From assembly GCF_022662175.1 (NCBI RefSeq), contig NZ_JAKMCR010000004.1, positions 168,299 through 232,298 of the forward strand: DNA of 64,000 nt, written 5' to 3'. A program made the position numbers and the translations under genes. The notes beneath the pieces were generated by a model. That model was not told the origin of the DNA, did no database searches, and saw only the letters and a program-made list of their open reading frames with translations. The stretch comes from Aestuariivivens marinum. GTDB taxonomy: Bacteria > Bacteroidota > Bacteroidia > Flavobacteriales > Flavobacteriaceae. Positions 1-42,461 of this stretch are shown piece after piece. Position 1 is the first letter of the stretch. Each line of letters starts with the position of its first letter.

Positions 1-523
1 CCCATAAATGCCAAGGCGTGAAGACACACACCATAACTTCTACATCATATACGTCACCTAAAACACCTTTTTTTATTAAATCTCTTGCAGCCATTATATA
101 GGGTGCATAGCGTAATTGAAAATTAATTCCGGAAACGAATTTTTTACGCCTGCATATATCCAATATTTGTTTGGCTTCTTCTAAGGTTTCACCCATTGGT
201 TTCTGTATCAATACGGCCGAACCTTCTGGAATTTGTTCTAGAATTTCACAGTTATGATTTGCAGGCAAGGCAATGTCATATACTGCATTACATGATTTGG
301 CATCAACTATTAATTCTGGAATACTGTTATAGACTTTTTCTACAAATGGAAACTCATTTTTTAAAGCTTGTGCCTTCTCTTGGGTTCTGTTGTAAATGCC
401 CTTTACAGGAAACCCTGTCAATTGATATGCAGGTAAATGGGCATCTTTAACAATGCCACCCGCACCAATAATGACTATGGGAAGGGGAGTATTTGGCAGT
501 GTAACGTCTTGGTTTATATTCAT
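1..523 (-). CDS. Gfo/Idh/MocA-family oxidoreductase (partial, C-terminus beyond window)
   Basis: The first 174 codons are visible and read without a stop to the window edge. The N-terminus carries a Rossmann dinucleotide-binding stretch (IVIIGAGGIVKDAHLPAY, about residues 16-33). The family's cofactor-binding EKP-type motif appears as QKPMGETLEEA near residue 112. This family oxidises or reduces sugars and cyclitols with NAD(P). The ATG shares a base with the TAA of the upstream mutarotase gene (TAATG), so the two are probably translationally coupled in one operon with the symporter. From its neighbours it is likely a sugar dehydrogenase in the same catabolic route, but the substrate cannot be read from the sequence. 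Confidence 0.88.
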   Translation of the reverse strand, partial: MNINQDVTLPNTPLPIVIIGAGGIVKDAHLPAYQLTGFPVKGIYNRTQEKAQALKNEFPFVEKVYNSIPELIVDAKSCNAVYDIALPANHNCEILEQIPEGSAVLIQKPMGETLEEAKQILDICRRKKFVSGINFQLRYAPYIMAARDLIKKGVLGDVYDVEVMVCVFTPWHLW

Positions 524-8709: not shown

Positions 8710-11700
8710 TTAATTGTTTACTAAAACAATCTTAGAAAATGTATTACTTTTTAAGATGTAAATACCAGAGGTTATTGAATTAGGAAATGTAAGTTTGGTA
8801 CTAGAGTTGGATTCGCTAAAAGTTGAATTTAATATTGGTATTGATTTTCCTAAAACATCAAAAAGTTTAAACTCATCTAAAGCCTTTGTATTTGTTATAT
8901 AGATTTCTTTATCTATTACTGGATTGGGGAATATTTTAAATTCGATATCAGAAGGTTCAGTTGTTTCGTGGCTAAAATATGGTAATGCAAAATAATAAGC
9001 GTTAATACCTACACTTTCTCCTATTATTCTGCCAGGAATATCATCAGCAGGAGGGTGAATACCACCCCAAATTCTTGATAAACTGGTTTGATCTGAAGCA
9101 TCTCTGTATGTTGCCCACTGTAAGGTAATATCTACTGAGGGCCCTTTTTCAAAAGCTAAAAATTCATTCTTTTTAGCTACAAATTCACCCATACCTCCAG
9201 GAAAGAATTCATCACCTGTAATAAGCGTTAATACCTCTGCTGCTGCTCTAGAAAAAGTTGAGTGCCCAGAAACATACCCAGCAAAGGGAGGTGTAACAAA
9301 TGATGGTCTTTGATAGGGCCACCAATTTTCAGCTAAGATCCAATCAACACCAGCTACATCAGTTTTAGAATTAATTATATAATCATGTCCTTTCCATGCC
9401 AATACTTTAATTTTTCCAATATTTTCATTATTGTGAAAAGCCAGTTGATCGTTTTCACCAACTAACTCGATAAACCCTTCTTTTAAAGGAATACCCCCAA
9501 TATGGTAATTTGGTAAGTTTTCGTCTGTACTTTGACCCAAGCTACTCATATAACGAATTGCTGAAATAGGTCTGATGTAATCATACCAACCTTTAATTCC
9601 CCAAGCTGAAATGGCGGAATCGTGCATGGCACCGGAGAGAATAAAATAAGATTTGATATCCCATTCTAAAGGCTCCAAAACATCACCTTTGCCATTAAAC
9701 TTTTTTATAAGCAGAGGATGATCATTCACATAATTTAAGATAGTAAACCAATGTCCTGGAGGTGTCTCGGAATCGGGTCCATCTGCCCAAAACTCTGCCA
9801 ACACTCTGGCATAATCAGCCCTTGGAACTAATTGCGGTGAGTAAGGCTTACCTGTTATAGGATTTATGGAATGTCCTTGTCCAATATCACCCCCTTCTAA
9901 TTCTTTGTAATAAGAGGGTAAATCGGCAAAATCATCTGAAAAAATATTGATATCTATGTTTCCGATATTGCCTGGTGAGATATCCCATATGACACCATCG
10001 GTTGGATCTAAATGGGAGCTCCAAAGCGATACCAATGAAAAGTTCCATTTGTATTGTTCGCTGGATTCGTTATTAGAATAAATGTTTAATTGAGGTGGTG
10101 TTCCCGGGTCATGATATACATGATAGTTATTACCATCCCTTTGAAAAGTCAGTTTATCTTCTTCTTGTAAAGCAAAAGGTGATACATTACCCCATTCGGG
10201 ACCCAAAAACTTGGGTGTAGATCCATTAATTAAATTACCACTTTGGTCAATAAACGTATTAAAAGTAAGCGGTTGCCAACGGTTAGGGTCATTTATCCCA
10301 TCACTCAACCCAGAAACGGCTAAATCTAAAGGGGGATTTACGGGTTCGTAATAGCTATATTCATAATCTAAAGCTTCTTGTGATCCATCACTATATCCAT
10401 AATCAATAACAGTTTTGGCTATATAATTGCCCAATGCAGCGGCATTGCCAGATATATAGTCTATGGAGGTTTCTTCTAAATTGTATCCTAATTGAGACAT
10501 AATTAAGTCAAACCGCGATAAACTTTCTTCAGCTCCTGGAGAATTTAAAAACCTATGTTTCAATAATCTATATGCAGTATAACTTAATGCTTTGTCAACA
10601 GAGTTGTTTCCAAATTCGTTGGGTGTAAATCCTTTAAATTCATTTTTGAATCCATTAACCGTATTACCAATTAAATAAGGCTTTGCTTTGTTGGTGTATA
10701 TTGCCCAAGTGTCAAATAACGCCATGGAAGTATGAAACAAATTTCTGGCATGTACATTGGGTCTTGCATAATCATTTCTTATGGCTTCCAATAGTGCTTC
10801 ATTCCATAAACGTGCAATAGAAATATCATTATGAGCTCTTGTTATATTTAATGATATCTCCAGTTCAGAACTTTGACTATTGCAAAGTTCACTTATTTCA
10901 GTAACTATAACTTTTCCCGTGGCTTCTAGCCCCCATTTTACACTAATTTGACCAGTCCCTTGACCAGAGATAATCTCACCTCCTTCAACACGCCAAGATG
11001 CTGTTGAATTACTTCCTAAAGAATATGTATAATTGGCTATTTGATGAAATCCCGATTGTGTAGGTCCAGATATTAAACTGGAATTTAAATATTCACAACT
11101 ATTATCATGTATTGTAGCTTCTGGATTGTAGTTACAAGAAAGAGGATCTGTACAACCAACTATTTTAATGCTTGGCCTAATATCTGTAATTTCAAATCCC
11201 TGGTTTTCAGTAAATTTTATGGTTGTATTTGATTCAAAATGCTGATATGACTCTAAAATTCCAGAAGGCCATTTGACCAAGATTTCATTTATGTTTGAGA
11301 TGTCTCCTAAGCCAAAATGAATTGGTTTTAAACTTTGTGATAAAAAACTAATACCATTGTAATAACGTTTAAAGTCTCCTTTATCCGTTTTAACAGTTAT
11401 AATAGTTCCTATGGCGTCTTTGTTGGAAATGGTTCCTTCTAATGAAATTTTCAACCAATTAAGGTTAGATTCCTCAAACATATTTATGGTCTTATTTTCG
11501 TAAAAGAAAATTTCCTTGTCGTTATTGGTCACTAAAATATCTAGGTCGCCATCATTATCATAATCAAATGTTGTACTGCTTATACTTTCTCCAGCTTCAT
11601 TTAAATTTGAAGCTTGTGAAGCATCTATAAACCCACCACCCATTTCTTCAAGTTCATTTTTAAAATATTTATTAAACTGTGGCCCTGTATTATTAAAGCC

Positions 11701-12726
11701 GTTTACAACAAAAAGGTCTTCATCACCATCGAGGTCAAAATCTTCAAAAGCAGTATCCCATGCCCATCCAGTATTTTTAATGTTTTCTTCTTCAGCAACA
11801 TTAGTGAATGTTAAATTTCCATTGTTTTTAAATAATGCATTTGAATTAATAGTGGTAACATATATGTCGAATAAACCATCTTTATTATAATCTCCCATGG
11901 CCACTCCCATATCATTGAATGAGTAATCCAACCCATATGATGCTGCAGCTTCGGTTACTGTAGCTCCAGCATTGTTAATGAAAAGGTCATTTGGAGTCTG
12001 AAAATCATTTGTGATATAAATATCTATCCAACCATCTTCATTGAAATCAAAAGGAAATGCTAGATAGGATCTTTCAGGAGAGTTGTTTAGTCCAAATGCT
12101 TCGGTAACATTATTGAAAGTTCCATCACCATTATTAATGTAGAATGTGTTTTGTCCACACAGTTCCCAATCGGAAACAAATAAATCAAGATAAGAATCAT
12201 TATTAAAGTCGAACCAAGAAGCACTCGTATTCCAACATCCGTTCTGCCTATCAATGCCAGCTTCTATAGTAGTTTCAACAAAAGTACCATTTCCTTCATT
12301 GTGAAATAGTTGCACTTTATACAAATAGGTTAGAAATAAATCGGGATAACCATCATTGTCGTAGTCTCCCCAAGAAACACCATATTTAACACCATCTAGC
12401 GATGGGTTTTCTTCACTGTATTCACTTGCTGGAAATAAATTTGTCAGGCCCGATTCTAAGGTAACATCCGTGAATGTTCCATTATCATTATTTCGAAATA
12501 GTTTGCTATGGGTTTTTTCTATACCAGAGAGATCTTTTCCTTTTGCAACAACAAGAATATCCAGATCGTTATCACCATCATAGTCTGCAACTGCAGCGCC
12601 ATTGTTTTCTTCAAGTACTTTTAATCCAGTTAAATGATCAATACGTTCAAAAACTTGTGAAAAAACAAGATTCTGACTACAAATTGACCATAAAAGAAAA
12701 TTAAAAACAATTTGCTTAAATCGCAT
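8710..12726 (-). CDS. Secreted FG-GAP/ASPIC-vanadium haloperoxidase fusion with T9SS tail (copy 1)
   Basis: This protein has 1338 residues from the ATG at 12726; a TTG lies 9 bases upstream. After a signal peptide come FG-GAP/VCBS repeats with calcium-type loops such as DYDGDNDLDI and DYDNDGYPDLF (about 30-420), an ASPIC/UnbV domain (about 420-510), a GCTDPLSCNYNP segment, and an Ig/PKD-like segment (about 550-640). A vanadium haloperoxidase/PAP2 domain follows, and a T9SS type A sorting tail ends the protein. The PAP2 signature is complete: K1045 x6 R1052-P, S-G-H1155, then S-R1218 x5 H1224 xxx D1228. Members either halogenate with peroxide or act as acid phosphatases. Which activity applies cannot be decided here. 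A close paralogue lies at 37324-41370. Confidence 0.9.
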   Translation of the reverse strand: MRFKQIVFNFLLWSICSQNLVFSQVFERIDHLTGLKVLEENNGAAVADYDGDNDLDILVVAKGKDLSGIEKTHSKLFRNNDNGTFTDVTLESGLTNLFPASEYSEENPSLDGVKYGVSWGDYDNDGYPDLFLTYLYKVQLFHNEGNGTFVETTIEAGIDRQNGCWNTSASWFDFNNDSYLDLFVSDWELCGQNTFYINNGDGTFNNVTEAFGLNNSPERSYLAFPFDFNEDGWIDIYITNDFQTPNDLFINNAGATVTEAAASYGLDYSFNDMGVAMGDYNKDGLFDIYVTTINSNALFKNNGNLTFTNVAEEENIKNTGWAWDTAFEDFDLDGDEDLFVVNGFNNTGPQFNKYFKNELEEMGGGFIDASQASNLNEAGESISSTTFDYDNDGDLDILVTNNDKEIFFYENKTINMFEESNLNWLKISLEGTISNKDAIGTIITVKTDKGDFKRYYNGISFLSQSLKPIHFGLGDISNINEILVKWPSGILESYQHFESNTTIKFTENQGFEITDIRPSIKIVGCTDPLSCNYNPEATIHDNSCEYLNSSLISGPTQSGFHQIANYTYSLGSNSTASWRVEGGEIISGQGTGQISVKWGLEATGKVIVTEISELCNSQSSELEISLNITRAHNDISIARLWNEALLEAIRNDYARPNVHARNLFHTSMALFDTWAIYTNKAKPYLIGNTVNGFKNEFKGFTPNEFGNNSVDKALSYTAYRLLKHRFLNSPGAEESLSRFDLIMSQLGYNLEETSIDYISGNAAALGNYIAKTVIDYGYSDGSQEALDYEYSYYEPVNPPLDLAVSGLSDGINDPNRWQPLTFNTFIDQSGNLINGSTPKFLGPEWGNVSPFALQEEDKLTFQRDGNNYHVYHDPGTPPQLNIYSNNESSEQYKWNFSLVSLWSSHLDPTDGVIWDISPGNIGNIDINIFSDDFADLPSYYKELEGGDIGQGHSINPITGKPYSPQLVPRADYARVLAEFWADGPDSETPPGHWFTILNYVNDHPLLIKKFNGKGDVLEPLEWDIKSYFILSGAMHDSAISAWGIKGWYDYIRPISAIRYMSSLGQSTDENLPNYHIGGIPLKEGFIELVGENDQLAFHNNENIGKIKVLAWKGHDYIINSKTDVAGVDWILAENWWPYQRPSFVTPPFAGYVSGHSTFSRAAAEVLTLITGDEFFPGGMGEFVAKKNEFLAFEKGPSVDITLQWATYRDASDQTSLSRIWGGIHPPADDIPGRIIGESVGINAYYFALPYFSHETTEPSDIEFKIFPNPVIDKEIYITNTKALDEFKLFDVLGKSIPILNSTFSESNSSTKLTFPNSITSGIYILKSNTFSKIVLVNN

Positions 12727-12769
12727 TGTAAACAACTAGCAATTATTAATGCTAAATTAATTTTTAGAA

Positions 12770-19671: not shown

Positions 19672-20199
19672 TTATAAAAATTTTTTAGGATTTAAGTTTA
19701 TTTTTTTCTCTTCGGGTGGGTAACATTTGTTAAGATCACAGGTTTGATAATAAATACCACAGGTTAAAACGCCATCGCTAATGTTGTTCACTTGGCAATA
19801 CTGAACGAATACAAGTTCGCCGTGATAAATATATACCCCATCATCATAAGGTTCGTCCAGAGGTTTAATCCAGTTTTCTATTTTGCTAATGCCCTCGGGT
19901 AGATTTAGTTGTAATTCTGAAGTGATATAAGGCTGTGTTTTGGGAACATAGGAGTAAATATGCCAACCATGTAGCAAATTCACTTTCATAATTACCGCAA
20001 GTTGGGTTTTATCCTCAGACCAAACTATAGTAGCATTTAATGATAAAGGATCCAAATCATAACACTCGAAGGCCTTAAGTTTAGAAGCCGATTCAGCAAC
20101 TTTTTTCTTGAATGACTCTGAAATTTCAGAGGATTGAGATCTTCCAATTTGTGACAGTATTAGTAAAGAAAAGACGAATAATAAATATTTATTCTTCAT
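19672..20199 (-). CDS. Stand-alone DsbD N-terminal-domain-like periplasmic protein
   Basis: This 175-residue secreted protein has a signal peptide (MKNKYLLFVFSLLILSQIGRS). Its single domain has the nDsbD immunoglobulin-like pattern: HGWHIYSYVPKTQPYITSEL early and a terminal CDLNKCYPPEEKKINL pair that matches CDDVRCLPP in the full DsbD next door. In DsbD this domain passes electrons to periplasmic acceptors. Here it lacks the membrane and thioredoxin parts. Its start overlaps the end of the upstream gene by 11 bp, which implies coupling. It is likely a redox partner or substrate-specific adaptor for DsbD. Confidence 0.8.
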   Translation of the reverse strand: MKNKYLLFVFSLLILSQIGRSQSSEISESFKKKVAESASKLKAFECYDLDPLSLNATIVWSEDKTQLAVIMKVNLLHGWHIYSYVPKTQPYITSELQLNLPEGISKIENWIKPLDEPYDDGVYIYHGELVFVQYCQVNNISDGVLTCGIYYQTCDLNKCYPPEEKKINLNPKKFL

Positions 20200-21712
20200 G
20201 GTTTGGTACGGTATTTACAAGCCATTTATAGCCCCCTGCTTCGGTAAAGAATAATTTATTTTTATTGTTTTTGTACCAATTTCTCCATTCATTGGCCGAC
20301 TCGAAACTTTCATCAGTATAACGTTTTAAAATTTTATGAGCCAGTTCCATTTTTTCACCTTTTTCAAGTAGCTCAATACAAGTCGTCAATAATTCAGGTT
20401 GTCTATTGGAAACGCCCAATGATTTTACATTTTCATCAACAACAAGCCCATAATACCCTTTATCGTTTTCAAAGCTAATGTATTCTAAATTTTCATCTAA
20501 ATAAGTTATATACGCTTTTACATCGGTACCAAATTGCTCAAAAAAACCACCCATATACCTTTTTATGTAATCTTCCCATGGCATATCTGGTTGCCTTGGC
20601 CTAGAGGGCCTATTAGCTAATTCTTCTTCTTCTTCAGTAAGCTTTTCACCTTTTTCTTTTTTTAATATAGCATCGTTTCTCTCTTTTTCATTTTTATCAT
20701 GAAATTCCCTAATCAAACCCAAATAATCCTGATACCCTTCTTCTGTAAGGCCATATTTAATCTGATCTATATATTGTCTGGTAAATATTATTCTTTCTGT
20801 TTTTTTGGCAATAATTTTATGCCCTTTAAACTGTTTCATGTAATAAATGGCATTGGCAAAAACTTTTTTGCTTTCCTGGGTCATGTAGTCTGGTGACGCA
20901 CTAAAACCCCAAAGTAAAAAGTTACCATGTCTTCCTATGGCAACCGCATCAATGTCTTTGGTACAAACCCCACTTGATATAAATTCTGTTTCGGGAGAGT
21001 CTAGAAAACCATCAAAAGAAGAGACTTGTCCTATTCTATAGCCTTTACCTTCTAAATATCCTTCTGTTTGCACTTGCCACATGGGCATGGTATCTGGAAG
21101 ATTTCTTCCCGATGCATAGTGAAATGCTCCACTAGGTGTTGGTCTGTCTTCCATAGTTAAAGAAACATTTAAAGGGCCTTTAAAGATGGGGTGACCGGTA
21201 TTTAAGCTATGTGCATGCGCATCTAAGCATAAACAATACCAATCTAACTTAGAACCTAGGGGAGAGGTCATTACTGGTGCAGCATGTCCAATAAAAATGG
21301 CTGCATGGTCAAAATCGTCTTCAATGTATTTTGCAGGAATATAACCCACCCTTTGTCCATTTTCATCAGTTTCAACTACCTGTTCTGATATAAGGTTTGG
21401 AATATGGTCAAAAATAGTTACATCGTAATTTTCGGATAATTTAGAATTATAGTCTCTGGCATCAACACCTTTAACTTCAGCAAAGTAAGTATTTAGGTAA
21501 TCCATAAAAGCAGGATACCTATATTCGTATTCTTTTTTAAACCGTTCGTTAGATAAGGATCCCGTAGTGAAAACACCCAATCGTTCTGGCATAGGTTTTT
21601 CAGGATGGTAACCAACATACAACACTTTTAAATCCAATTTCTGTTGTGCAGTACATGTAAAGGATATAAATAATGCAAAAATAAATGCAATCTTAAAAAA
21701 ATTGGTTTTCAT
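20189..21712 (-). CDS. Secreted protein of unknown function, amidotransferase/ThuA-like N-terminus
   Basis: This 507-residue protein has a signal peptide ending near SFTCTAQQ. The first half has an alternating strand-helix pattern starting LDLKVLYVGYHPEKP, with NYDVTIFDHIPN, and ends with GRHGNFLLWGFSASPDYMTQES. This recalls ThuA/class I amidotransferase-like folds. The second half is highly charged (a stretch around residues 330-380 rich in K and E) and may be helical. No catalytic triad can be assigned with confidence. It overlaps the nDsbD-like gene by 11 bp, so the two probably work together. A terminator at 21729-21761 separates it from the upstream TlpA gene. Confidence 0.7.
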   Translation of the reverse strand: MKTNFFKIAFIFALFISFTCTAQQKLDLKVLYVGYHPEKPMPERLGVFTTGSLSNERFKKEYEYRYPAFMDYLNTYFAEVKGVDARDYNSKLSENYDVTIFDHIPNLISEQVVETDENGQRVGYIPAKYIEDDFDHAAIFIGHAAPVMTSPLGSKLDWYCLCLDAHAHSLNTGHPIFKGPLNVSLTMEDRPTPSGAFHYASGRNLPDTMPMWQVQTEGYLEGKGYRIGQVSSFDGFLDSPETEFISSGVCTKDIDAVAIGRHGNFLLWGFSASPDYMTQESKKVFANAIYYMKQFKGHKIIAKKTERIIFTRQYIDQIKYGLTEEGYQDYLGLIREFHDKNEKERNDAILKKEKGEKLTEEEEELANRPSRPRQPDMPWEDYIKRYMGGFFEQFGTDVKAYITYLDENLEYISFENDKGYYGLVVDENVKSLGVSNRQPELLTTCIELLEKGEKMELAHKILKRYTDESFESANEWRNWYKNNKNKLFFTEAGGYKWLVNTVPNHEE

Positions 21713-21728
21713 GGTATAGGAGTTTATT

Positions 21729-21761
21729 AAAAAAGGGTTGTTACAATAACAACCCTTTTTT
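21729..21761 (-). terminator. Strong rho-independent terminator after TlpA gene
   Basis: Fifteen-bp perfect arms (AAAAAAGGGTTGTTA and its complement) with a 3-base loop. The minus-strand product ends in a run of six T. It closes the gene at 21820-23001. Confidence 0.85.
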
Positions 21762-21819
21762 CTTTTGTTAAAAAAAGTGACTAACTCAAGATAATTATTA
21801 ACAAAATATTAGGTTGATT

Positions 21820-23001
21820 TTATTTTAAAAGCTCTTCCAAAAGGGTAAAAGCCTCTTCGCCAGATCCCACAAACTTCTTTACTATTTTACCTTCTGGGTC
21901 AATAATAAATTTAGTTGGAAAGGCATTAACATTATAACGCAGCACAAAATTATCGACTTCACTGTCCCTTACATCCATAACCTGTTGCCATTGGTAATCG
22001 TTCTTGTTAACGAAGTCTATTATTCTTTGCTTTTTATCACCAGAGTTTACGCCCAAAATTTCTAAACGACCATTGTATTTTTTACTAAACTCCTTTACTT
22101 TAGGCATTTCAGAGACACATGGACCACACCAAATACCCCAAAAATCGACCATGACATACTTGCCTCTGTATGAAGCTAAATCAAATTCGTTACCATCTAA
22201 TGTCGATGTCGTTTTAATAGCTGGAGCAACAGCGCCTTCTTTTGTACTGTTAATGGCATTAACACGATAAGATATGTCTTTGTAATAAGCCATATCTGTC
22301 AATGCACTATCAAGATTGTTAAAGGCCTCAATGGCAATGTCGTTATCAATTTGGCTTCGCATCATCATGTCGCTTAAGTAATATAAAGCTGCTACAGATG
22401 AAGGATTATTTGTAACAAACTCCTTTTTAACATCATTAACAATAGCGGTTACAGAATCAGCTTTTTCTTTAAGCGTGTTTTGGATGTCTTCATTTTCCTC
22501 AAAAGACGATTTAACCAAGTAATTAACGCTTTCGTTCATTAAAGGATAAATCTTTTTATGGAATGTGCCCAGTTCATTGTTAATGCTATCGCTGTTTTCT
22601 GGGTAAGCATCCATAAAATCTGATGCCTTGCCACTCACTTTTATGTTTGCACCAGGGTATAGGATGGCAGCTAAATAACCCGACTTAGCAGGGTAATAGC
22701 CCCTTGGCGTTCCTTTAATGAGTTCTTTCATTCTTGTGAAAAAAGTCACAAAATGATGTCCTTCAATAGAATCGGTTAATGTAAAGCTTCCATTAGTAAC
22801 AACAACTGAATCTGTTCTGTAGCCCAAAGCATCATAATCTTTGTTTGGCATTCTGTAATATAGGGTGTTGTTCTCTAAACCTTCAATAGTACCTTCTAAT
22901 GTAAAGGTCTTTGGAGTTTCTACTTCACTTACCTCATTTTTACATGAAGCCAAGAAAACGACCAATAAAACAAGCATTATATTACTACCTAAATTGTTCA
23001 T
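21820..23001 (-). CDS. TlpA-family thiol-disulfide lipoprotein (DUF4369 + AhpC/TSA)
   Basis: This 393-residue protein has a lipobox (FLASC, Cys20), so it is membrane-anchored. The N-terminal half resembles DUF4369 (FTLEGTIEGLENNTLYYRMP). The C-terminal thioredoxin fold has WCGPC in VDFWGIWCGPCVSEMPK (about residue 290) and the cis-Pro segment NAFPTKFIIDPEGKIV. It probably reduces disulfides in the envelope and is recharged by DsbD. It follows SusD but has its own terminators on both sides. It is one of three such lipoproteins in this region. Confidence 0.92.
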   Translation of the reverse strand: MNNLGSNIMLVLLVVFLASCKNEVSEVETPKTFTLEGTIEGLENNTLYYRMPNKDYDALGYRTDSVVVTNGSFTLTDSIEGHHFVTFFTRMKELIKGTPRGYYPAKSGYLAAILYPGANIKVSGKASDFMDAYPENSDSINNELGTFHKKIYPLMNESVNYLVKSSFEENEDIQNTLKEKADSVTAIVNDVKKEFVTNNPSSVAALYYLSDMMMRSQIDNDIAIEAFNNLDSALTDMAYYKDISYRVNAINSTKEGAVAPAIKTTSTLDGNEFDLASYRGKYVMVDFWGIWCGPCVSEMPKVKEFSKKYNGRLEILGVNSGDKKQRIIDFVNKNDYQWQQVMDVRDSEVDNFVLRYNVNAFPTKFIIDPEGKIVKKFVGSGEEAFTLLEELLK

Positions 23002-23299: not shown

Positions 23300-24739
23300 T
23301 TAGTACTCGTTTTGTACTGTAGCACCACCGCTTAGGGTTAAAACTTCATCACCTATTGGTCTAGCCCAAGCTCTAGAGTCTGGTTGTATAGTAATAGTTT
23401 CTCCATTAATCGTTCTAGTAATTACTATAGGGTCTGTTAATGGATCATTATTCAATCGCTTAATATCCATAAAACGCAAGGTAAATGGAGCCTCTCTTCT
23501 ACGTTCGTCTATAACTTCATTTACTGCATCTTTTACAGAAGCCGGTATTGTGAGTGGTGTGTAATCAGCTGCTGCAAATCGATTAACACGTACCATTTCA
23601 ATGTCTGACATGGCTCCTGATAAATCATTATCACGTGCTTTACATTCAGCTCTTGTTAAATACATTTCTGCAACACTAGGTCCGGCATAAGAATCCCCAG
23701 GTCCCATGTGCATATAACTGGTCCATGTATTAGAGGTAACACCGGTACGGGCAAACCAGCCATCAATATAAAAGACATTACGTATATCTGCTGGGTCATA
23801 TAAATCTAACAATTCTTGGCTAGGGCTTGTATTCCATGACCCATTTGTTTCATAGAAATAAAAATATTGGTCAGTATAAAAGTCAGACCCAGACTGTTGC
23901 CAAGAAGCCAATTGTGCAGTATTTGGATAAACAAAATCACCATACCATAAAGTGAATGGAAGAATTGTAATTTCATCCTCAAAATTTACCATGGTATTAA
24001 AACCACTTAAGGCTGCATCAGCATGAGTTTTAGCCTGATCATAATTACCCAAATACAAATGTACTCTGGCAGCTAAGGCATGCACACTAGGTTTTCCTAT
24101 ACGATAACGCCCTTTCTTTTCTGTATTAGGGTATTTTAATGCTTCGTTTAATTCTGCTAAAATAAAATCAAAAGTTTCCTTAACTGTAGCTCTTTCTTGA
24201 CTTTCGGTAACAGAACTGGTTTGTTTTATTACAATACCCAATTCTTCTTGATTAGCACTATTGGGGTATAAAGCATAAGTTAGTGCCAAATTAAAGTGAT
24301 TGTGAGCTCGATAAAAATGTGCTTCAGCTGTTAACAAATCTACTAAAGCTTGGTCTTCCATACCACTTACTGTTCCTTCTTCCAGTTGTTCTAATATTAA
24401 ATTAGAAACAACCAGCATACGTCCATAATAAGTTGCCCAAGTTCTGTCAGATGATCTACTTTCCATAGTTGTAGAAAATGTATACTGTTGTTGTTGTTCC
24501 TCATTAAAAGAAGTAGACTCATCTAAAATCTCTTGAGGCATAAATGCATTATCATGACACCATACACTTGCCTGATGTTCAGTACCAACTGCAGATATGG
24601 TTCCATAAAATAATCTATCCAAATCATCAACTGTCTGTATTACAACATCTGTATTAACATTTGGGTTAACATCTAGATGATCTTCAGAGCAGGCAGTAAA
24701 AAGAACACTACATATAATAAATAAAAATACTTTTTTCAT
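23300..24739 (-). CDS. SusD/RagB-family outer-membrane lipoprotein
   Basis: This protein has 479 residues from the ATG at 24739 (lipobox LFTAC, Cys17). A TTG further upstream at 24760 would overlap SusC and spoil the signal peptide. Typical SusD features are the N-terminal helical stretch, TPR-like repeats (AEAHFYRAHNHFNLALTYALYPN, HALAARVHLYLGNYDQAKTHADAAL) and the C-terminal YLTRAECKARDND and VIDERRREAPFTLRFMDIKRLN segments. It caps the SusC channel at the cell surface and captures the ligand. It starts 10 bp after SusC. The ligand is unknown; peptidase neighbours make a peptide a fair guess. Confidence 0.95.
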   Translation of the reverse strand: MKKVFLFIICSVLFTACSEDHLDVNPNVNTDVVIQTVDDLDRLFYGTISAVGTEHQASVWCHDNAFMPQEILDESTSFNEEQQQQYTFSTTMESRSSDRTWATYYGRMLVVSNLILEQLEEGTVSGMEDQALVDLLTAEAHFYRAHNHFNLALTYALYPNSANQEELGIVIKQTSSVTESQERATVKETFDFILAELNEALKYPNTEKKGRYRIGKPSVHALAARVHLYLGNYDQAKTHADAALSGFNTMVNFEDEITILPFTLWYGDFVYPNTAQLASWQQSGSDFYTDQYFYFYETNGSWNTSPSQELLDLYDPADIRNVFYIDGWFARTGVTSNTWTSYMHMGPGDSYAGPSVAEMYLTRAECKARDNDLSGAMSDIEMVRVNRFAAADYTPLTIPASVKDAVNEVIDERRREAPFTLRFMDIKRLNNDPLTDPIVITRTINGETITIQPDSRAWARPIGDEVLTLSGGATVQNEY

Positions 24740-24749
24740 AATTTTTTTT

Positions 24750-27700
24750 TTAAAATTCAATATTTAAACCTAAAGAAAATGTTTTTTCAGGAGCTCTTGT
24801 TACCCCTTCAATATATTCAGGATCTATTCCATGATCATTAGCTTTCCATATATTACCTAAGTTTTCAGCTTGGGCAAATAAGCGCAGACGTGAAATTCCT
24901 GCTTTTGAAAGGACATCTTGTGGCAAATCATATGCAAAAAATACTTGTCTTAAACGAATATGTGCTGCATCTTCCACTAAGGTATCCAAATTTGGAGTAT
25001 ACCAACCCCATCTATAACCCCAAAACTCATATTCCGTTTCTAGCTTAGGAAGCCCCATGGCGTCATGATTGCCGGCTAATAACCCAGCTAAGTCTTCATG
25101 AAACCCTCCTTTTTGCAGGAATACTTCATAATTAAAAGTTGGTCTAATAAATTTGTGTCCAAATTTACCAGTCATTCTGGTACTTAAGGTAAAGTTTTTA
25201 AATCTTAAGGTATTGTTCCATCCTATTACTGTTGGCGCTACTCTGGTACCCATATACTTAAGAACATCTCTACCATCTTCTCCATTTTGACCAATGTTTA
25301 GATCCATACCATAAGTTTCACCATTTTCACCAATTATAGTTGGGTACGGTTTGGGTTGTGAATCTATGGTTTGCATACCGCCATATACAAATGAATAGAT
25401 TGGTTGGTAAGGCTTTCCTTCAATATATGGAAAACTAGAAATACTACGTGGGAAAATAGCAATATCTTTTAATGAGGTGACTTCACTATCATTAAATGCA
25501 AAAACAACATTAGTTGTAAAACTGGTATTGCTTGAAAGCCTGATATCTGAACTTAAATCAAACTCTAACCCTTTGTTAAGCATACTTGCCACATTGTATC
25601 TAGCAGAAGTAAAACCTGTAGTAGGAGAGGTGTCTACACTAGCTATTAAATCTTTACTTGCTTTATTATAGTAATCTATTGAACCATATAATTTACTATC
25701 GAATAAATCAAGATCCAAACCAATATTGTAAGTAGCTACGCGTTCCCAACGTAAATCTGGATTACCTAAACCATTAAGAAAAGCTCTAAAACCTCCATGA
25801 ATAGGGCTAAAAGAAGGACTCAAACTAATAGTAGGAATTGTAGCTTCAGCATTTACAACATTACCATTTTGACCATTGGTAACCCTAAGTTTTAAACGAT
25901 TAACAAAGTCAACATCTCTTAAAAAGTTTTCTTCACTAATGTTCCAGCTAGCTCCAATAGACCACATCGGGTTATAACGTTGACTTTTATCTTCAACTAT
26001 AAAGTTAGCACCATCAGAGCGTGCACTACCAGAAATGGTATACTTACCATCATAAGTATATGCAAAATTTCCAAAATATGATATAAAACGATCATCGCTT
26101 CGTGTGAAAGCTCTACCATCACCAACTCCACCAGCACCCCATATTGACTGCCAAGGTTGATTATTTGGAACAGCATAAGTGAAGTTATCTTTATTAAAGC
26201 CATAGGTTCTTACTCCACCTGTAAACTTACTTGTACTGGATGTTTTTTCAACACCCCCTAAAACATTGATATAATGTTTACCAAACATTTTATCATAAGT
26301 TATTAAGTTTCTTAAAGTAAGATAATCTGTTTCTCCAAAGGCATTGTCTAAGATGGCTCCAGTAGGAATACGGGATTCCCCCAAATTACCATTTACTGGA
26401 TCATAATTAGGGATTTCATACCCATTAATTACTGCAAACTTAACAGAAGACGTTTCAGGGCCATAATAGTTATTAGAATTAGTATCATATTTCTGATAAG
26501 TAAAACTTGGTTTAACCATTAACCCATCTATAATTTTAATGTCTAATCCAGCACTAACTCTTAAATTGGTTTCCTTAGTAACAAATTCTGTATCCCTGGC
26601 ATCCCTAAGTGGGTTAAATGTAATGTCGTCGTAAGGCAGGCCATTAACACTATTTGCAAAAATCTCTAAATATTTAGCATCGTATGTAGGATGATATACA
26701 GAAGCATAAGAGCCATCGTCATTTATCAATCGATCATAGGGTTGTAAGTTCTGTATTGTATTAAACCCAACACCGGCACTTTCTCTTCTAGATTTATCCA
26801 ACATTCCACTAATGTTTAATGTTAACCAATCTGAAATTTTATACTGGTTGTTGAGGTTAATTAATAATTGATTGTCTTCAGTCCCTATAAATGCACCTGT
26901 ATTATCGTTATATAACACAGATAACCTAGTATTACTATTATCAGTAGAAGTACCAAAAGACAAATTATATTGTTTTTGAATAGGAGCAACTAATAAATAA
27001 TCTTTAGCATCTATAAGGCTATTATTGTTAGACAACCTAGAAATAATGGCATTTAATTCTGCCTGGGTTATATCACCATTATAAGCATCAAAATAAGCTC
27101 TTGCGCCTTGTGAATAGGCTGTATTTCCACCACGGTTAACATTTTGCCTGTCAAATAATGTATTTGGAGCAGGATATGGTAACATAAAACCACTTAAAAC
27201 ACCATGTCCACCAGGTATCCATATGGTAGCTTCATATGCTAATTGTGTTTTGGAATCAGCAGTTGTAATATTACGATCTAAATCCATTTTAGGACGCATT
27301 TTAACTGAAGAGGTAAACCCAATTTGCATTTTACCTTTCTTGGCTTTTTTTGTTGTAATTACAATGACACCGTTTGCAGCTCTTGCTCCCCAAATAGATG
27401 CAGCAGCAGCATCCTTAAGAATATTTATACTTTCAACATCGTTAGGGTTAATCGTATTAAAGTTGCTTACTTGAATTGGAAATCCATCAACCACTAAAAG
27501 AGGTGCTCTGGATGAAGTCATAGTTCCAACACCCCTTATCGCTATATCGTCCAAATTAATTCTACCATCAGCATCTTCAACCACTTGAATACCAGGAGCA
27601 ATACCCTGAAGTACAGAACCTATATTTTGAGTTACTGTATTCTGAATTTGCTCTTTTTTAATTGGTGTAAAAGAACCGGTTGAACGTTCTTTAGCAACTT

Positions 27701-28385
27701 TTTGGTATCCAGTTACAATAACTTCTTCAAGTTCACTTACATCCTCTTGCATTGTGAAATCGTATATTGTTTTTCCTTCCTGCACAAGTTGTTGTGCTGT
27801 TTTAAAACCTACACCTGTTACAACTATTATTTCACCTAGATTAGCATTAAGCTTAAATTTACCGTCGAAATCTGTATAGGTTCCCCTAATAATGTTTTGA
27901 CCAATTTCAGAAGTATTAGTAGTAGTATAAACACTTAAACCCGCAATAGGAACGCCTTGACCATCTATAATAGTCCCTGTAACTGGTATACCCTGCTGTA
28001 AGCCACCAATTGTTATTGGTTTTATTAAAACATTATTCGTGTTGGGAGATAACTCAACTTGAAATTCACCGTGCGATAAACTTTTTTGAAGTAATTCATT
28101 AATTAAAATACTTCCTTTTTTAAGATTCACTTTTGGAAAATCTTTAAAAGTATCTACTTGATAAATAAAAGTATAATCTGTTTGGTCAGAAATAAGTTCA
28201 AAAACCTCATCTACAGTTAATACTCTATCATTTTCTATCTTTATTTTTGTGTTTTGAGAAAACACCTCATTTGCAGGGGTGAAACCAAAAACCATTGAGC
28301 AAAACAAAAAAATAAAACTCTTCATAGCCATAATTAGTAACTTATCCTTATAAAAGAAAAAAGGATTCTTTAATTTAATTTCCAT
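24750..28385 (-). CDS. SusC/RagA TonB-dependent transporter with STN signalling domain
   Basis: This 1211-residue outer-membrane protein has a signal segment followed by an STN domain (about 48-125), which signals to FecR in trans-envelope regulation. A carboxypeptidase-D-like beta-sandwich follows (about 130-215), then a TonB-box-like acidic stretch (VSELEEVIVTGYQ). The plug has the SusC signature IRGVGTMTSSRAPLLVVDGFP and NILKDAAAASIWGARAANGVIVITTKK. A large barrel ends in LGLNIEF with a terminal Phe. With SusD and the sigma/FecR pair it forms a self-inducing uptake system. Start choice is uncertain: internal ATGs near residues 19-21 give a cleaner signal peptide. Confidence 0.95.
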   Translation of the reverse strand: MEIKLKNPFFFYKDKLLIMAMKSFIFLFCSMVFGFTPANEVFSQNTKIKIENDRVLTVDEVFELISDQTDYTFIYQVDTFKDFPKVNLKKGSILINELLQKSLSHGEFQVELSPNTNNVLIKPITIGGLQQGIPVTGTIIDGQGVPIAGLSVYTTTNTSEIGQNIIRGTYTDFDGKFKLNANLGEIIVVTGVGFKTAQQLVQEGKTIYDFTMQEDVSELEEVIVTGYQKVAKERSTGSFTPIKKEQIQNTVTQNIGSVLQGIAPGIQVVEDADGRINLDDIAIRGVGTMTSSRAPLLVVDGFPIQVSNFNTINPNDVESINILKDAAAASIWGARAANGVIVITTKKAKKGKMQIGFTSSVKMRPKMDLDRNITTADSKTQLAYEATIWIPGGHGVLSGFMLPYPAPNTLFDRQNVNRGGNTAYSQGARAYFDAYNGDITQAELNAIISRLSNNNSLIDAKDYLLVAPIQKQYNLSFGTSTDNSNTRLSVLYNDNTGAFIGTEDNQLLINLNNQYKISDWLTLNISGMLDKSRRESAGVGFNTIQNLQPYDRLINDDGSYASVYHPTYDAKYLEIFANSVNGLPYDDITFNPLRDARDTEFVTKETNLRVSAGLDIKIIDGLMVKPSFTYQKYDTNSNNYYGPETSSVKFAVINGYEIPNYDPVNGNLGESRIPTGAILDNAFGETDYLTLRNLITYDKMFGKHYINVLGGVEKTSSTSKFTGGVRTYGFNKDNFTYAVPNNQPWQSIWGAGGVGDGRAFTRSDDRFISYFGNFAYTYDGKYTISGSARSDGANFIVEDKSQRYNPMWSIGASWNISEENFLRDVDFVNRLKLRVTNGQNGNVVNAEATIPTISLSPSFSPIHGGFRAFLNGLGNPDLRWERVATYNIGLDLDLFDSKLYGSIDYYNKASKDLIASVDTSPTTGFTSARYNVASMLNKGLEFDLSSDIRLSSNTSFTTNVVFAFNDSEVTSLKDIAIFPRSISSFPYIEGKPYQPIYSFVYGGMQTIDSQPKPYPTIIGENGETYGMDLNIGQNGEDGRDVLKYMGTRVAPTVIGWNNTLRFKNFTLSTRMTGKFGHKFIRPTFNYEVFLQKGGFHEDLAGLLAGNHDAMGLPKLETEYEFWGYRWGWYTPNLDTLVEDAAHIRLRQVFFAYDLPQDVLSKAGISRLRLFAQAENLGNIWKANDHGIDPEYIEGVTRAPEKTFSLGLNIEF

Positions 28386-28499
28386 AAATTTACATTGTTT
28401 ATTAGTTAGTTAACGATTTAATTGATTAATAATGTTTATGAAAGGGAGTTGAGGTGTTGTTTTGTGGTAAAGTATAAACCCTCACTTCCTTTTTCTTTT

Positions 28500-29678
28500 T
28501 TATCTTATTAAAATTGTTTTTCCATTTATACTATAGTTATTAATATAATTAGTATTCTTTATATTGATTAATATTTCTTCTATATTCTGGTTTTTACTTG
28601 ACACTCCGGTAAAACGAATATTTTCTAATTCTTTATCCATAAAAATAATATCCACATCATACCATCTAGATAGTACTTTTGCAATTTCTTTTAAAGGTAA
28701 ATTTGTAAAGGTGAAAATTCCTTTCCTCCAAGAAACAACTTTTCTCACATTAACATTAGTAATATTAATTGTGTTGTTTTGTCCTTTAGTATTTATTTCG
28801 GACTGCTCACCTGGTTTTAAAGTAGCCTTTTCAAAACCATTGTTTATTGCGATACTGCCCTCAGATAATGTAGTTAAAATACGTGGTTCATCTTTATAAG
28901 CCTTGATATTAAACTCAGTACCCAACACCTCTATTTCTTGCATTTGTGTATTAACAATAAATTGAGCGCCGTTATGGTTAGCACTAGGAGAAACTTCAAA
29001 ATAGGCTTCTCCATATACCAACTCAACTTTACGTGATTCTCCTTTGGCAAAAGCCACTGGGTATTTAAGTTTAGATTCAGAATTTAACCAAACTTTTGTA
29101 CCATCGGGTAATTGTACATAAAACTCACCACCTCTTGGGATGGTTAAATAATTGTATTTAATCTCGCCTTTTAAAACTTTAGCATCCCTATAAACCACAC
29201 CTGCATCATTAGCTTTCACGTTGTTACTCACAAAGTCTTTACCTGTTTCAAGAAAGATATCGGTTCCATCTTCTAAAGTCAATGTTGCTTTGTTAGATCC
29301 AATTTCAATATCATTATTAATTAAAGTTGGCTGTGCAATAGTTATAATATTTATGGGATTGTTTTTTTCTCTCTTGTTTATAAAGACAATAGAAAGACTA
29401 ACAAACAAAATTACAGACGCCGCAACAGCATATTTCCAAAAGGATGTATTTCTTTTAATGGGTTTAATTTTACTTTCTAAGTCATCCCAAGAAACTAAAT
29501 TGGCAGATTGTAAAGACCTGAATTGTTCAATGCTGTAATTTGTTACAACATAATGTTTAAACACAAGACGGTTTTTTTCTTTTTCCTTCAACCAGTTATT
29601 TAGTACTTGTATTTCTTCACTATTTATCTGATTAGTAAAGTACTTAATAACTAACGCTTCTATTTGATAGTTAATCAT
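28500..29678 (-). CDS. FecR-family anti-sigma factor
   Basis: This 392-residue protein has a cytoplasmic N-terminal anti-sigma region (IEALVIKYFTNQINSEEIQVLNNWL) and one membrane helix (WKYAVAASVILFVSLSIVFI). The periplasmic FecR domain includes IPRGGEFYVQLPDGTKVWLN and VLGTEFNIKAY. A C-terminal DUF4974 domain (LKEIAKVLSRWYDVDI) is present. It binds the divergently encoded ECF sigma factor and releases it when the SusC STN domain signals ligand. It is 114 bp upstream of SusC on the same strand. Confidence 0.95.
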   Translation of the reverse strand: MINYQIEALVIKYFTNQINSEEIQVLNNWLKEKEKNRLVFKHYVVTNYSIEQFRSLQSANLVSWDDLESKIKPIKRNTSFWKYAVAASVILFVSLSIVFINKREKNNPINIITIAQPTLINNDIEIGSNKATLTLEDGTDIFLETGKDFVSNNVKANDAGVVYRDAKVLKGEIKYNYLTIPRGGEFYVQLPDGTKVWLNSESKLKYPVAFAKGESRKVELVYGEAYFEVSPSANHNGAQFIVNTQMQEIEVLGTEFNIKAYKDEPRILTTLSEGSIAINNGFEKATLKPGEQSEINTKGQNNTINITNVNVRKVVSWRKGIFTFTNLPLKEIAKVLSRWYDVDIIFMDKELENIRFTGVSSKNQNIEEILINIKNTNYINNYSINGKTILIR

Positions 29679-29769
29679 AAAATAACAAAATATACTTCTA
29701 AGACGCTTATATCTAAAATTACCCTAGTATAAATTTCATTTTTTTTATAGATTTACCCCATCTTCAATA

Positions 29770-30399
29770 ATGGAAATGAAAAATAGCGAAGAAAATATTG
29801 AGTTGTTAGTGCAAAATTTTAAAAACGGTAGCACCTTAGCATTTAAAATACTGTTTGAGAAATATCATGTTGAGCTTACAGCTTTTATAAATAGTTATAC
29901 GAATGATGAAGCATTGTCGAAAGATATTGTTCAAGAATCGTTTGTTAAATTATGGGATGCAAGAGCAAATATTAAAAGCGAAAACTCAATATCAGCATAT
30001 TTATACAAGATAGGCTATTATATTTTTATTGATAATTATAGAAAAAACAAGAAAGAGTCTCAAATGATAGATTCTTTAACTTACAAAGCACTTTCAAGTT
30101 TCGAAGAAACAGATAATGGTTATTTAAAGGAACAAAGATTAAAAAAAATTTATTCAGCCATTGAGAATTTACCACCCCGATGTAAGGAGATTTTCAAAAT
30201 GAGTAAGCTTCAGGGCTATAAATATTATGAAATTGCGAAAATGTTAAAGATAACTGAAAAAGCAGTTGAATCGCAAATGTCAATAGCCTTTAAAAAAATA
30301 AGAAATGAAATAAGAAATAATAGTTCATTATTATTATTTTTTAATTTAATGTCAAATAAATTTGATTTAAAAACCGGTATCAAACGGTCTATAGATTGA
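29770..30399 (+). CDS. ECF-family RNA polymerase sigma factor
   Basis: This 209-residue protein has region 2 (FEKYHVELTAFINSY, then SKDIVQESFVKLWDA) and region 4 (AIENLPPRCKEIFKMSKLQ, YYEIAKMLKITEKAVESQM helix-turn-helix). It fits the Bacteroidetes FecI-like sigma group that drives a linked SusCD operon. It is the only plus-strand gene between 8.7 and 44 kb and diverges from FecR over a 91-bp gap. In most such loci it is co-directional with FecR. Confidence 0.95.
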   Translation: MEMKNSEENIELLVQNFKNGSTLAFKILFEKYHVELTAFINSYTNDEALSKDIVQESFVKLWDARANIKSENSISAYLYKIGYYIFIDNYRKNKKESQMIDSLTYKALSSFEETDNGYLKEQRLKKIYSAIENLPPRCKEIFKMSKLQGYKYYEIAKMLKITEKAVESQMSIAFKKIRNEIRNNSSLLLFFNLMSNKFDLKTGIKRSID

Positions 30400-34639: not shown

Positions 34640-35836
34640 TTAATGTCCGAATAGCCCTTTTAGCTTAGTATCCAATTCATCTTTGGTTGGGTTTCTTAAA
34701 AGAATGGTGTTGTTATTATCAATCAAAAATGTAGTTGGTAAATGAGGCACTCCGTAACTTTTGGCTACAGGGCCGTAAGCCCTGCCTTCTGCAGCATCAA
34801 ATACATGAATCCATGGGGTTTCATCTTCCTCTATAGCTTTACGCCATTGTTCTTCAACATCGGCAGTACCAATACCAACAATTTCAAAACCGTCTTTTTT
34901 GTATTGCTTACGTAATTCTTTTAAATGTGGAAATGATGTTCTACAAGGGATACACCAACTAGCCCAAAAATCGACTAACTTATATTTTGCATTTACTTTT
35001 GATAAAGCCAGTTCATTCCCTTCAACAGTATTAAGGGTAAAGTCCGGAGCAGTATTACCTATCCCTAAGTTTTCAAAATTGTCTTTATAAACTTTGGTGA
35101 TATGATGTTTGAAAAATACAGTCTCTCTGGCGTTACCAGTAAAAAGGTTGTAATACTCCTTTAATTCATCTTTAGTCATTCTGCCTTCAGTATACTGATA
35201 CCCTAAAACATGCACTGCTATGGGAGAGCCTGGGTTGTTTTTAACAAAGTCTATTTTTGCTTTTATGTACCTATCCTTTTGCTCCTTGCTAAGTGGCATT
35301 AGCTCTTTTTGAAGGCTTTCAGCTTTTTCAAGATCTTCAGCGCTTTTAGTCTTTTTCGCTTGTGCATAAAGTTTCCCGATTTCATCAAGGGGTTTATATT
35401 TTGGGTCTTCTAGTATAGCCTGGGCTTGCGCTTCTATGGCTGCATATTGGTTATGACTTTTGGAACCGGAAACCTTAGAATTAAATTGCCAATTACTTGC
35501 TTGTACCTCAGACCAATCGATGTCTAAAGTAATGTGACTGTTTTCAAGAAAAAATCTACTGATCTTGCCATCAATGGATAAATTAACCATATCTGGAAAA
35601 TCAACTTTTCCGGTAAATTCAAAAGCACCATTTACAATTTGGGTACTGTCTATCACAGTAACTTTTTCACGATTACCGTAATCAGTCATTTTAACAAAGC
35701 CTTGATCAAGTCCTTTTATGGTACCTGAAATTATATATCCAGCCTTCTCTCTACTTTGAGTTGTATAGTCTTTGCATGAAGTAATTAAGGTAAAAACAAT
35801 TAAAACAACTGTAATTCTCAGTACAAAATTCTTCAT
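34640..35836 (-). CDS. TlpA-family thiol-disulfide lipoprotein
   Basis: This 398-residue protein has lipobox Cys21 (LITSC). A DUF4369-like N-terminus (YIISGTIKGLDQGFVKMTDYG) and a helical middle (AAIEAQAQAILEDPKY to LMPLSKEQKDRY) precede a thioredoxin domain. That domain has a WCIPC active site in DFWASWCIPCRTSFPHL and cis-Pro in GVPHLPTTFLI. The CIPC dipeptide differs from the CGPC of its two relatives, which may shift its redox potential. It lies 12 bp downstream of another TlpA gene, so the two are co-transcribed. Confidence 0.92.
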   Translation of the reverse strand: MKNFVLRITVVLIVFTLITSCKDYTTQSREKAGYIISGTIKGLDQGFVKMTDYGNREKVTVIDSTQIVNGAFEFTGKVDFPDMVNLSIDGKISRFFLENSHITLDIDWSEVQASNWQFNSKVSGSKSHNQYAAIEAQAQAILEDPKYKPLDEIGKLYAQAKKTKSAEDLEKAESLQKELMPLSKEQKDRYIKAKIDFVKNNPGSPIAVHVLGYQYTEGRMTKDELKEYYNLFTGNARETVFFKHHITKVYKDNFENLGIGNTAPDFTLNTVEGNELALSKVNAKYKLVDFWASWCIPCRTSFPHLKELRKQYKKDGFEIVGIGTADVEEQWRKAIEEDETPWIHVFDAAEGRAYGPVAKSYGVPHLPTTFLIDNNNTILLRNPTKDELDTKLKGLFGH

Positions 35837-35848
35837 GGTATATAAGGG

Positions 35849-41777: not shown

Positions 41778-42461
41778 TTAGTTGTTATGATTTACCTCAA
41801 CTTTCCATTCACCTGGTTCCAAAATAATAAAATTAAAATTTACAAGAGTTGTTCCTGGATTACTTACGTTGTTAAAGGAATAATTCATATTACATTCAAA
41901 AGGCACATTGGTTCCTTTAAAAATACCTAAATCTTGATCGATCCAATAATTTCCACTATCTCCAATAGTATTTGTTGGTATTCTAATTCTTTGACCATTA
42001 ACTCTAACTTCAATAGTAACTTGATTAATAGCATCACCAACTTTTCTTATTTTGTAATTACGAACACCCATATCTGTAATTACTCTATACATTTGAGATT
42101 TAGGTTTTCCTATGTATTCATCATCTTTCCAAATGCCTTTTTTAATTACTTTTTTACCTTCTATATTTGCTGTAAAAACGCCTTCTCCATTTCTTTTTCC
42201 TTTTTTCCAGCTACCTTCGTAAACAGAGCCATTAGTATAAGTCATTATTCCATTGCCATGAGGGAATCCTTTTTTAAATTCTCCTTCATAAGAATCAATG
42301 CCCTTCGCAATACCAATACCATTTGCAATTCCATTTTTACACTCGCCAGAATAAGTTCCAGAAATATTTTCCAATAAAACCTTACAATCTTCTTGTGCAG
42401 CAACTAAAGAAATGTTTAATAAGAAAAAGAATAACATGCACAGATTAAGTTGATTTTTCAT
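41778..42461 (-). CDS. Secreted MORN-repeat protein
   Basis: This 227-residue protein has a signal peptide (MKNQLNLCMLFFFLLNISLVAAQ). Three or four MORN-type repeats follow at about residues 33-100, including YSGECKNGIANGIGIAKG, YEGEFKKGFPHGNGIMTYTN and YEGSWKKGKRNGEGVFTAN. The C-terminal 110 residues have no recognised domain and look beta-rich. MORN repeats often mediate membrane or protein contacts, but the role here is unknown. It appears to be transcribed alone. Confidence 0.85.
   Translation of the reverse strand: MKNQLNLCMLFFFLLNISLVAAQEDCKVLLENISGTYSGECKNGIANGIGIAKGIDSYEGEFKKGFPHGNGIMTYTNGSVYEGSWKKGKRNGEGVFTANIEGKKVIKKGIWKDDEYIGKPKSQMYRVITDMGVRNYKIRKVGDAINQVTIEVRVNGQRIRIPTNTIGDSGNYWIDQDLGIFKGTNVPFECNMNYSFNNVSNPGTTLVNFNFIILEPGEWKVEVNHNN

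Follow-up and report, generated by a model that had tools for sequence, protein, structure and literature searches.

Known haloperoxidases and the protein studied

Among the described vanadium haloperoxidases (VHPOs), comparison can be made with the V-CPO of Curvularia inaequalis (1vnc, 1idu, 1vni), the single-domain iodoperoxidase ZgVIPO1 of Zobellia galactanivorans (4cit, 4usz; 410-415 residues), and NapH1/NapH3 (3w35, 3w36, 8cxl) and XhnO11 (9l8x), whose solved chains of 458-472 residues carry neither a propeller nor a type IX secretion system (T9SS) tail. Here we analyse a 64,000-nucleotide stretch of DNA from Aestuariivivens marinum (the window; contig NZ_JAKMCR010000004.1, positions 168,299 to 232,298), which encodes a protein, fusion A, that unlike these chains has both additions. 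Its N-terminal half resembles CRTAC1. In animal CRTAC1 (9etn), an EGF-like domain follows the propeller part, according to the accessible part of PMC10477339, whereas in fusion A the propeller and its ASPIC domain continue into a CTDP-PKD-VHPO-T9SS chain.

As far as our searches go, the combination of a propeller with a VHPO is undescribed. No paper on this fusion was found among the titles and abstract openings listed, and no co-mention of haloperoxidase with FG-GAP and vanadium, or with UnbV, was found in the literature outside subscription journals. Haloperoxidase and VCBS are co-mentioned in the available text of a rhizobial genome paper; haloperoxidase, type IX secretion and vanadium occur together in two papers, the Zobellia study PMC9296495 (see below) and PMC12188728, where the single occurrence is confined to the reference list. 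In the accessible text of a halogenase survey preprint (PMC12871659) the words fusion, domain architecture, multidomain and Bacteroid do not appear. For bacterial CRTAC1 propellers, the accessible parts of the literature named no ligand that had been tested.

Architecture of fusion A

The minus-strand frame of fusion A (8710-12726 including the stop, 1338 amino acids (aa)) is uninterrupted; an alternative TTG start at 12735 would add three residues. An initial annotation of this DNA had read the frame as calcium-loop FG-GAP repeats followed by ASPIC/UnbV, CTDP, Ig/PKD-like, VHPO/PAP2 and T9SS segments, an order borne out by Pfam and NCBIfam profile searches. FG-GAP_3 matches in six stretches (1.4e-38), followed by UnbV_ASPIC (4e-12), DUF6851 (residues 667-819, 1.6e-08, 35.5 bits against a cut-off of 27) and VCPO_2nd (4.3e-06, 27.3 bits, cut-off 27), while PKD_6, at 24 bits, lies slightly under its cut-off of 25. 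Seven loops of the form D-x-[DN]-x-[DNS] start at residues 48, 121, 173, 227, 279, 329 and 388.

Fusion A has the features of a T9SS type A cargo: a signal peptide recognised by inspection, a tail that matches TIGR04183 at 29.4 bits (cut-off 23), and a PorU encoded in the same genome (1388.5 bits, cut-off 420), so that the tail named in the initial annotation stands. The mature N-terminus is probably Q24, which is invariant in all rows of a 25-row alignment of full-length relatives that includes both window copies, fusion A (copy A) and its paralogue B. The propeller and ASPIC/UnbV domain are arranged as in CRTAC1 (9etn match, E 4e-15, residues 22..509); the EGF-like domain of the animal protein gave no match in fusion A (Pfam, E 0.01), and the kinship proposed here covers the propeller-ASPIC part alone.

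The enzyme domain

The active-site residues of VHPOs, namely the vanadate-binding K, R, S, G and R, the axial H and the catalytic H of the SGH motif, are all present in fusion A. K1045, R1052, S1153, G1154, H1155, R1218 and H1224 are invariant in 25 of 25 rows, among them the five that the initial annotation had listed as an intact signature (K1045, R1052, H1155, R1218, H1224), each at the exact number given, and the motifs are kept in 83 of 83 VHPO rows. By motif spacing rather than superposition, W350, K353, R360, F397, S402, G403, H404, R490 and H496 of the Curvularia enzyme have their counterparts in W1042, K1045, R1052, F1148, S1153, G1154, H1155, R1218 and H1224 (V-CPO numbers from the accessible part of PMC9144378, except H496, which is from a structure title).

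The fold predicted by AlphaFold is that of a VHPO across the whole enzyme domain rather than of a generic PAP2 protein. The initial annotation had held that characterised VHPOs are usually much smaller. The added modules are indeed unusual, but the enzyme domain itself, with 627 aa, is to be set against matched VHPO chains of 410-639 aa, nearly all of which it equals or exceeds. It is 14-23% identical to NapH1/NapH3 and XhnO11 and 21-22% identical to ZgVIPO1; the latter is named an iodoperoxidase, whereas no halide is assigned to fusion A. An assignment of halide specificity from the Trp/Phe position was abandoned, as Phe occurs in both V-CPO and the iodoperoxidase (accessible part of PMC9144378). 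The VHPO domain of the window shares 54-71% identity with the members of alignment A2, and no characterised member of this clade was found.

Distribution of the family

The initial annotation had not covered paralogue B (37324-41370), the wide spread of the family, the other fusion type found in proteobacteria or the resemblance of the N-terminal half to the CRTAC1 fold. A protein search scored 7997 candidates, at least 5953 of them relatives of the enzyme part, and the best 120, one being the window's own, were analysed. FG-GAP_3 occurs together with DUF6851 and/or VCPO_2nd in 112 of these 120, all 1261-1382 aa long. Because this architecture is so widely shared and recurs in many genomes, a gene-fusion or assembly artefact, or chance, was rejected as an origin of fusion A. 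The family is easy to overlook, since the visible names say FG-GAP, CRTAC1 or T9SS: those among the 120 relatives listed (FG-GAP, T9SS, ASPIC/UnbV, DUF6851, secreted, hypothetical) never include haloperoxidase.

Of 299 genomes of the window's family, 84 carry the VHPO clade (E <= 1e-100). They give 99 match rows, and 51 of these, from 42 genomes, fall in open frames of at least 1250 aa. Frame length is a proxy for fusion here, supported by full- or near-full-span matches in 40 genomes and paired one-frame matches in two more (G050, G126). In a phylum sample of 395 genomes the clade was found in 22.

The best 80 of at least 582 confirmed loci, together with the window copies, gave a set of 84 rows, comprising 49 fusions with CTDP/PKD (fusA), 20 without (fusB) and 15 unfused rows, of which one (L057) is merely cut by its own contig. 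The fusA rows are the two window copies, 41 from Flavobacteriaceae, five from other Bacteroidota and one metagenome-assembled genome (MAG) labelled Algicola (Gammaproteobacteria), which may be misnamed, its gene order being flavobacterial. The fusB rows include 16 gammaproteobacterial ones, one alphaproteobacterium, the cyanobacterium Aphanocapsa feldmannii, one Rhodothermota and one Flavobacteriaceae MAG. In the fusB frames from proteobacteria and the cyanobacterium the chain runs no further than 17 residues past the enzyme (L085 is cut off by the end of its contig), which leaves no room for a T9SS tail; the tail is present in the Rhodothermota and Flavobacteriaceae rows (L079, L082).

Some variants were seen in passing. 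The same VHPO clade is joined to Ig domains (with a sub-threshold LRR) or to MopE-type metal-binding repeats, with no propeller, in L076, L088 and L090. In two gammaproteobacterial MAGs (L075:2451-10307 and L073) fusB genes lie in tandem, those of L075 with identical enzyme domains and different propellers. A propeller-less copy from Wenyingzhuangia (L061:9833-12133) falls within the fusA part of the enzyme tree and offers a natural comparison with the enzyme alone.

Propeller exchange and the number of joinings

Propellers vary against a constant enzyme. In the 25-row alignment the enzyme has a mean pairwise identity of 67%, the propeller 45%, the PKD domain 42% and the tail 33%. Five fusA rows have enzymes 66-70% and propellers 32-55% identical to those of copy A, the extreme being L047 of Flavivirga rizhaonensis (fusion at 10001-14002; enzyme 70%, propeller 32%), which by these identities is likely a natural propeller swap. 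For the fusB protein of L074 the values are 59% and 29%. The L074 propeller shares 54-67% identity with 120 listed proteins (66% over 99% for the best), most of them about 545 aa long; the few of these listed with an organism name are gammaproteobacterial, and a VHPO profile match was found in none of the 95 listed free relatives of 500-620 aa.

On the propeller tree (without L081 and the free L069) a single origin was rejected (p 1.45e-5), the long rows L079 and L082 being grouped with the free L080; once L079, L080 and L082 were removed and the free rows reduced from 49 to 24, the test no longer rejected it (p 0.329). On the enzyme tree, a single origin had p 8.4e-5 with L057 (contig-cut) and L061 (an apparent secondary loss) counted as unfused, and p 0.479 with L057, L061, L079, L081 and L082 removed and fusA thinned to 29 rows; this tree alone cannot decide the number of fusions. 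An expanded propeller tree added 24 free relatives of the fusB propeller (every fourth passing among the 95 of 500-620 aa from the 120 listed) and included the divergent, long-branched propeller of L047. With the five dropped rows left out, one fused clade was rejected (p 0.0004, lnL 637 lower), and the fusB label needs seven changes, six of them forced by well-supported branches. The free relatives of the fusB propeller, this rejection and the contrast between enzyme and propeller identities, taken together, make it likely that propeller and enzyme were joined at least twice; repeated fission instead of repeated joining is the alternative.

Proposed function and alternative explanations

We consider it probable that fusion A is a secreted, T9SS-tailed protein whose C-terminal vanadate-dependent haloperoxidase is held against a surface or an extracellular target by the N-terminal, calcium-stabilised CRTAC1-type propeller. 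It would leave the cytoplasm by the Sec route, with Q24 as mature N-terminus, and its tail and the PorU of the genome point to passage through the T9SS, removal of the tail and attachment to the surface. By analogy to the Curvularia enzyme, H1224 would bind vanadate, K1045, R1052, S1153, G1154 and R1218 would hold the vanadate oxygens, and H1155 would act in the catalytic cycle. Peroxide and bromide or iodide (possibly chloride) would then yield hypohalous acid, released beside whatever the propeller binds. The initial annotation had suggested a halogenating or phosphatase machine with an adhesion module of its own; a separate propeller that could address the enzyme is present, while either activity, like adhesion by the propeller, is conjectural.

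Several observations weigh against this proposal. NapH3 (8cxl), among the nearest folds, is described in its structure title as a VHPO homologue that rearranges its substrate. The stretch between motifs 1 and 2 is long, with 98 residues from P1053 to V1152, and R1052 and H1155 are 103 positions apart compared with 44 for R360 and H404 in V-CPO; the Pro of the PSGH motif is replaced by Val, Ile or Leu in VHPO alignment rows. The clade is absent from the one same-genus genome searched (G219), and many copies seem to do without a propeller, since 48 of the 99 match rows lie in frames below 1250 aa (two of them one broken copy, in G150, and that of G202 partial).

Class A acid phosphatases and PAP2 proteins carry the signature KX6RP-(X12-54)-PSGH-(X31-54)-SRX5HX3D, from which fusion A departs with VSGH instead of PSGH and with spacings of 98 and 61. 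A secreted phosphatase of the PAP2 superfamily, using the same pocket for phosphate and addressed to phosphorylated surface polymers, has to be set against this mismatch. We regard it as quite improbable, even though there is a PAP2 Pfam match (17.7 bits, far under its cut-off of 27.2), V-CPO and acid phosphatases share their pocket and vanadate inhibits the latter (accessible part of PMC9144378), and a phosphate intermediate has been captured in a structure of apo-V-CPO (3bb0, by its title). Rather unlikely, too, is a selective and perhaps non-halogenating VHPO homologue acting on one substrate in the manner of NapH1/NapH3, which, together with XhnO11, are among the nearest folds and profile matches, and for which the propeller could present the substrate. 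In selective VHPOs of the NapH type, another residue replaces the Phe/His near vanadate and the His of SGH. The motif reads SGF in NapH3 and SGS in 9l8x, yet H1155 is kept, together with F1148 at the position of V-CPO Phe397, in 83 of 83 rows, and this SGH/Phe-type pocket suggests a VHPO of the releasing rather than the substrate-selective kind. No biosynthetic cluster was recognised by eye at 11 loci and two window stretches, a weak test that used first residues only.

The propeller might instead be only a scaffold for folding, stability or secretion, with no outside binding, a possibility that we find doubtful but weightier. The same enzyme occurs in propeller-less frames about 730 aa long, with matches that extend through the tail, so an address is not needed, and calcium loops can serve stability; however, propellers have diverged or been swapped on a constant enzyme, and the fusions of proteobacteria carry propellers close to local free ones, a pattern that suits an exchangeable address better than an indispensable chaperone.

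If the addressed haloperoxidase proposed above is active, a widespread and hardly noticed source of reactive halogen would exist on bacterial surfaces (fused-length frames in 42 of 299 family genomes), with consequences for the chemistry between bacteria and algae, for the cycling of iodine and bromine and for the question of how a diffusible, self-damaging oxidant can be aimed. The accessible part of a Zobellia study (PMC9296495) reports an iodoperoxidase as upregulated on an alga and T9SS genes as induced. In the flavobacterium Arenibacter sp. C-21 (genome BDGL00000000), iodine uptake is reported as calcium-requiring and peroxide-driven, and at least five PAP2 proteins of its genome are homologues of the iodoperoxidase from Zobellia (PMC5064120), a lead that a calcium-looped surface VHPO would suit. 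Tentatively, one may imagine a class of addressed halogenating enzymes in which several phyla repeatedly joined an exchangeable CRTAC1 propeller, a counterpart of an integrin-like head, to one strongly conserved VHPO, giving guided generators of hypohalous acid at the surface; the ECF sigma/FecR/SusCD genes and TlpA/DsbD-type thiol reductants of the window cluster would sense, import and reduce what the oxidant releases or marks, and the iodine uptake of C-21 would be one physiological face of this class. The apparent propeller swap on a constant enzyme offers ready-made variants for finding ligands of CRTAC1 propellers, and the clade offers enzyme engineers a VHPO group with no characterised member found.

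Paralogue B and its gene cluster

Paralogue B is 54% identical to fusion A over 1322 columns. A search of the own genome returned, for VHPOs, copies A and B of this clade and one distant stand-alone enzyme (L004:343-1887; G000:C5:237763-239136) of 514 aa (516 aa open frame) with a lipoprotein-like N-terminus by inspection. The features of the window are collected in Table 1.

Table 1. Positions of the features discussed, numbered from the first nucleotide of the window
Feature	Position	Strand	Basis or remark
Fusion protein A, 1338 aa	8710..12726	-	ATG 12726, stop 8710-8712
A, signal peptide, residues 1-23	12658..12726	-	by inspection; putative cleavage site
A, FG-GAP propeller, residues 25-425, seven Ca-type loops	11452..12654	-	Pfam, predicted structure, CRTAC1 match
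A, ASPIC/UnbV domain, residues 438-503	11218..11415	-	Pfam; within CRTAC1 match 22..509
A, CTDP segment, residues 524-546	11089..11157	-	three invariant Cys (C525, C531, C544; sequence, 25-row alignment)
A, PKD/Ig-like beta domain, residues 552-622	10861..11073	-	PKD_6 below cut-off; model beta strands 563-626
A, VHPO domain, residues 630-1256	8959..10839	-	profile matches, predicted fold
A, motif 1, K1045 to R1052 (W1042-x2-K-x6-RP)	9571..9594	-	kept in 83/83 VHPO rows
A, motif 2, F1148 to SGH1155	9262..9285	-	F-x2-[YF]-x-SGH in 83/83 VHPO rows
A, motif 3, R1218 to H1224	9055..9075	-	R-x5-H in 83/83 VHPO rows; H1224 axial ligand by analogy
A, T9SS type A sorting domain, residues 1265-1329	8740..8934	-	TIGR04183
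Paralogue B, 1348 aa, architecture of fusion A	37324..41370	-	Pfam, NCBIfam, genome search
MORN-repeat secreted protein, upstream of B	41778..42461	-	relatives in G006 (71%) and L047 (37%)
Two thioredoxin-fold (TlpA/AhpC-TSA-type) proteins, downstream of B	34640-35836, 35849-37222 (34640..37222)	-	lipoprotein-like by inspection
ECF sigma	29770-30399	+	transport/signalling unit 23300..30399
FecR	28500-29678	-	transport/signalling unit 23300..30399
SusC/RagA	24750-28385	-	transport/signalling unit 23300..30399
SusD	23300-24760	-	transport/signalling unit 23300..30399
DUF4369 thioredoxin	21820-23001	-	cluster part 19672..23001
Secreted protein, no family match, 507 aa	20189-21712	-	cluster part 19672..23001
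DsbD_N-like protein	19672-20199	-	cluster part 19672..23001

The cluster runs from the MORN gene through fusion B, the two thioredoxin-fold genes, a PA14-like lipoprotein (below cut-off), an S9 peptidase, ECF sigma, FecR, SusC, SusD, a third thioredoxin-fold gene, the gene with no family match and the DsbD_N gene to an M16 peptidase. Of the two thioredoxin-fold neighbours of B, only 34640-35836 has a DUF4369 Pfam match. The protein of 20189-21712 has no match in Pfam (E 1e-3) or NCBIfam (E 0.01); counterparts adjoin the VHPO cluster in G006 (38%) and L047 (47%).

G006, from another genus of the same family, has nearly the whole B cluster, rearranged, in about 25 kb, with identities of 83% for B, 88% for SusC and 84% for SusD; of the two thioredoxin-fold genes adjoining B, a counterpart is present there only for 35849-37222. 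In L047, sigma, FecR, SusC, SusD, MORN, the fusion, two thioredoxin-fold genes, the 20189-21712 type and DsbD_N follow in a row, mostly at lower identity. Among 41 other genomes with a fused-length frame, the 20189-21712 protein has relatives in three and the MORN protein in three; both occur only in G006, near the fusion.

Neighbourhoods of other copies

A conserved neighbourhood as a key to function was considered and set aside, there being no single context across loci. A porV-containing stretch is common to 17 of 80 loci, with porU in 15 (family names from L022 alone), a synteny that may be mere inheritance because the loci belong to related genera. In Winogradskyella and its relatives (L022:154-14011 and similar loci), porU and porV, which encode the T9SS sortase and its partner, are located several genes upstream of the fusion. 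The fusion of L018 stands among three alpha-L-fucosidase genes, a sulfatase and SusCD, and L033 has two tandem fusions beside lectin-domain and DUF2264 genes. A link between the fusion gene and surface uptake loci thus exists in part of the genomes only.

A free CRTAC1-type gene was found in the flanks of unfused VHPO genes at two of 15 loci (L069, L080; some flanks are short), too few for a claim. In two genomes of one genus (G065:C1:120463-125356 and G281:C6:13250-18133), a separate CRTAC1-type gene precedes an unfused VHPO gene on the same strand by about 1.8 kb.

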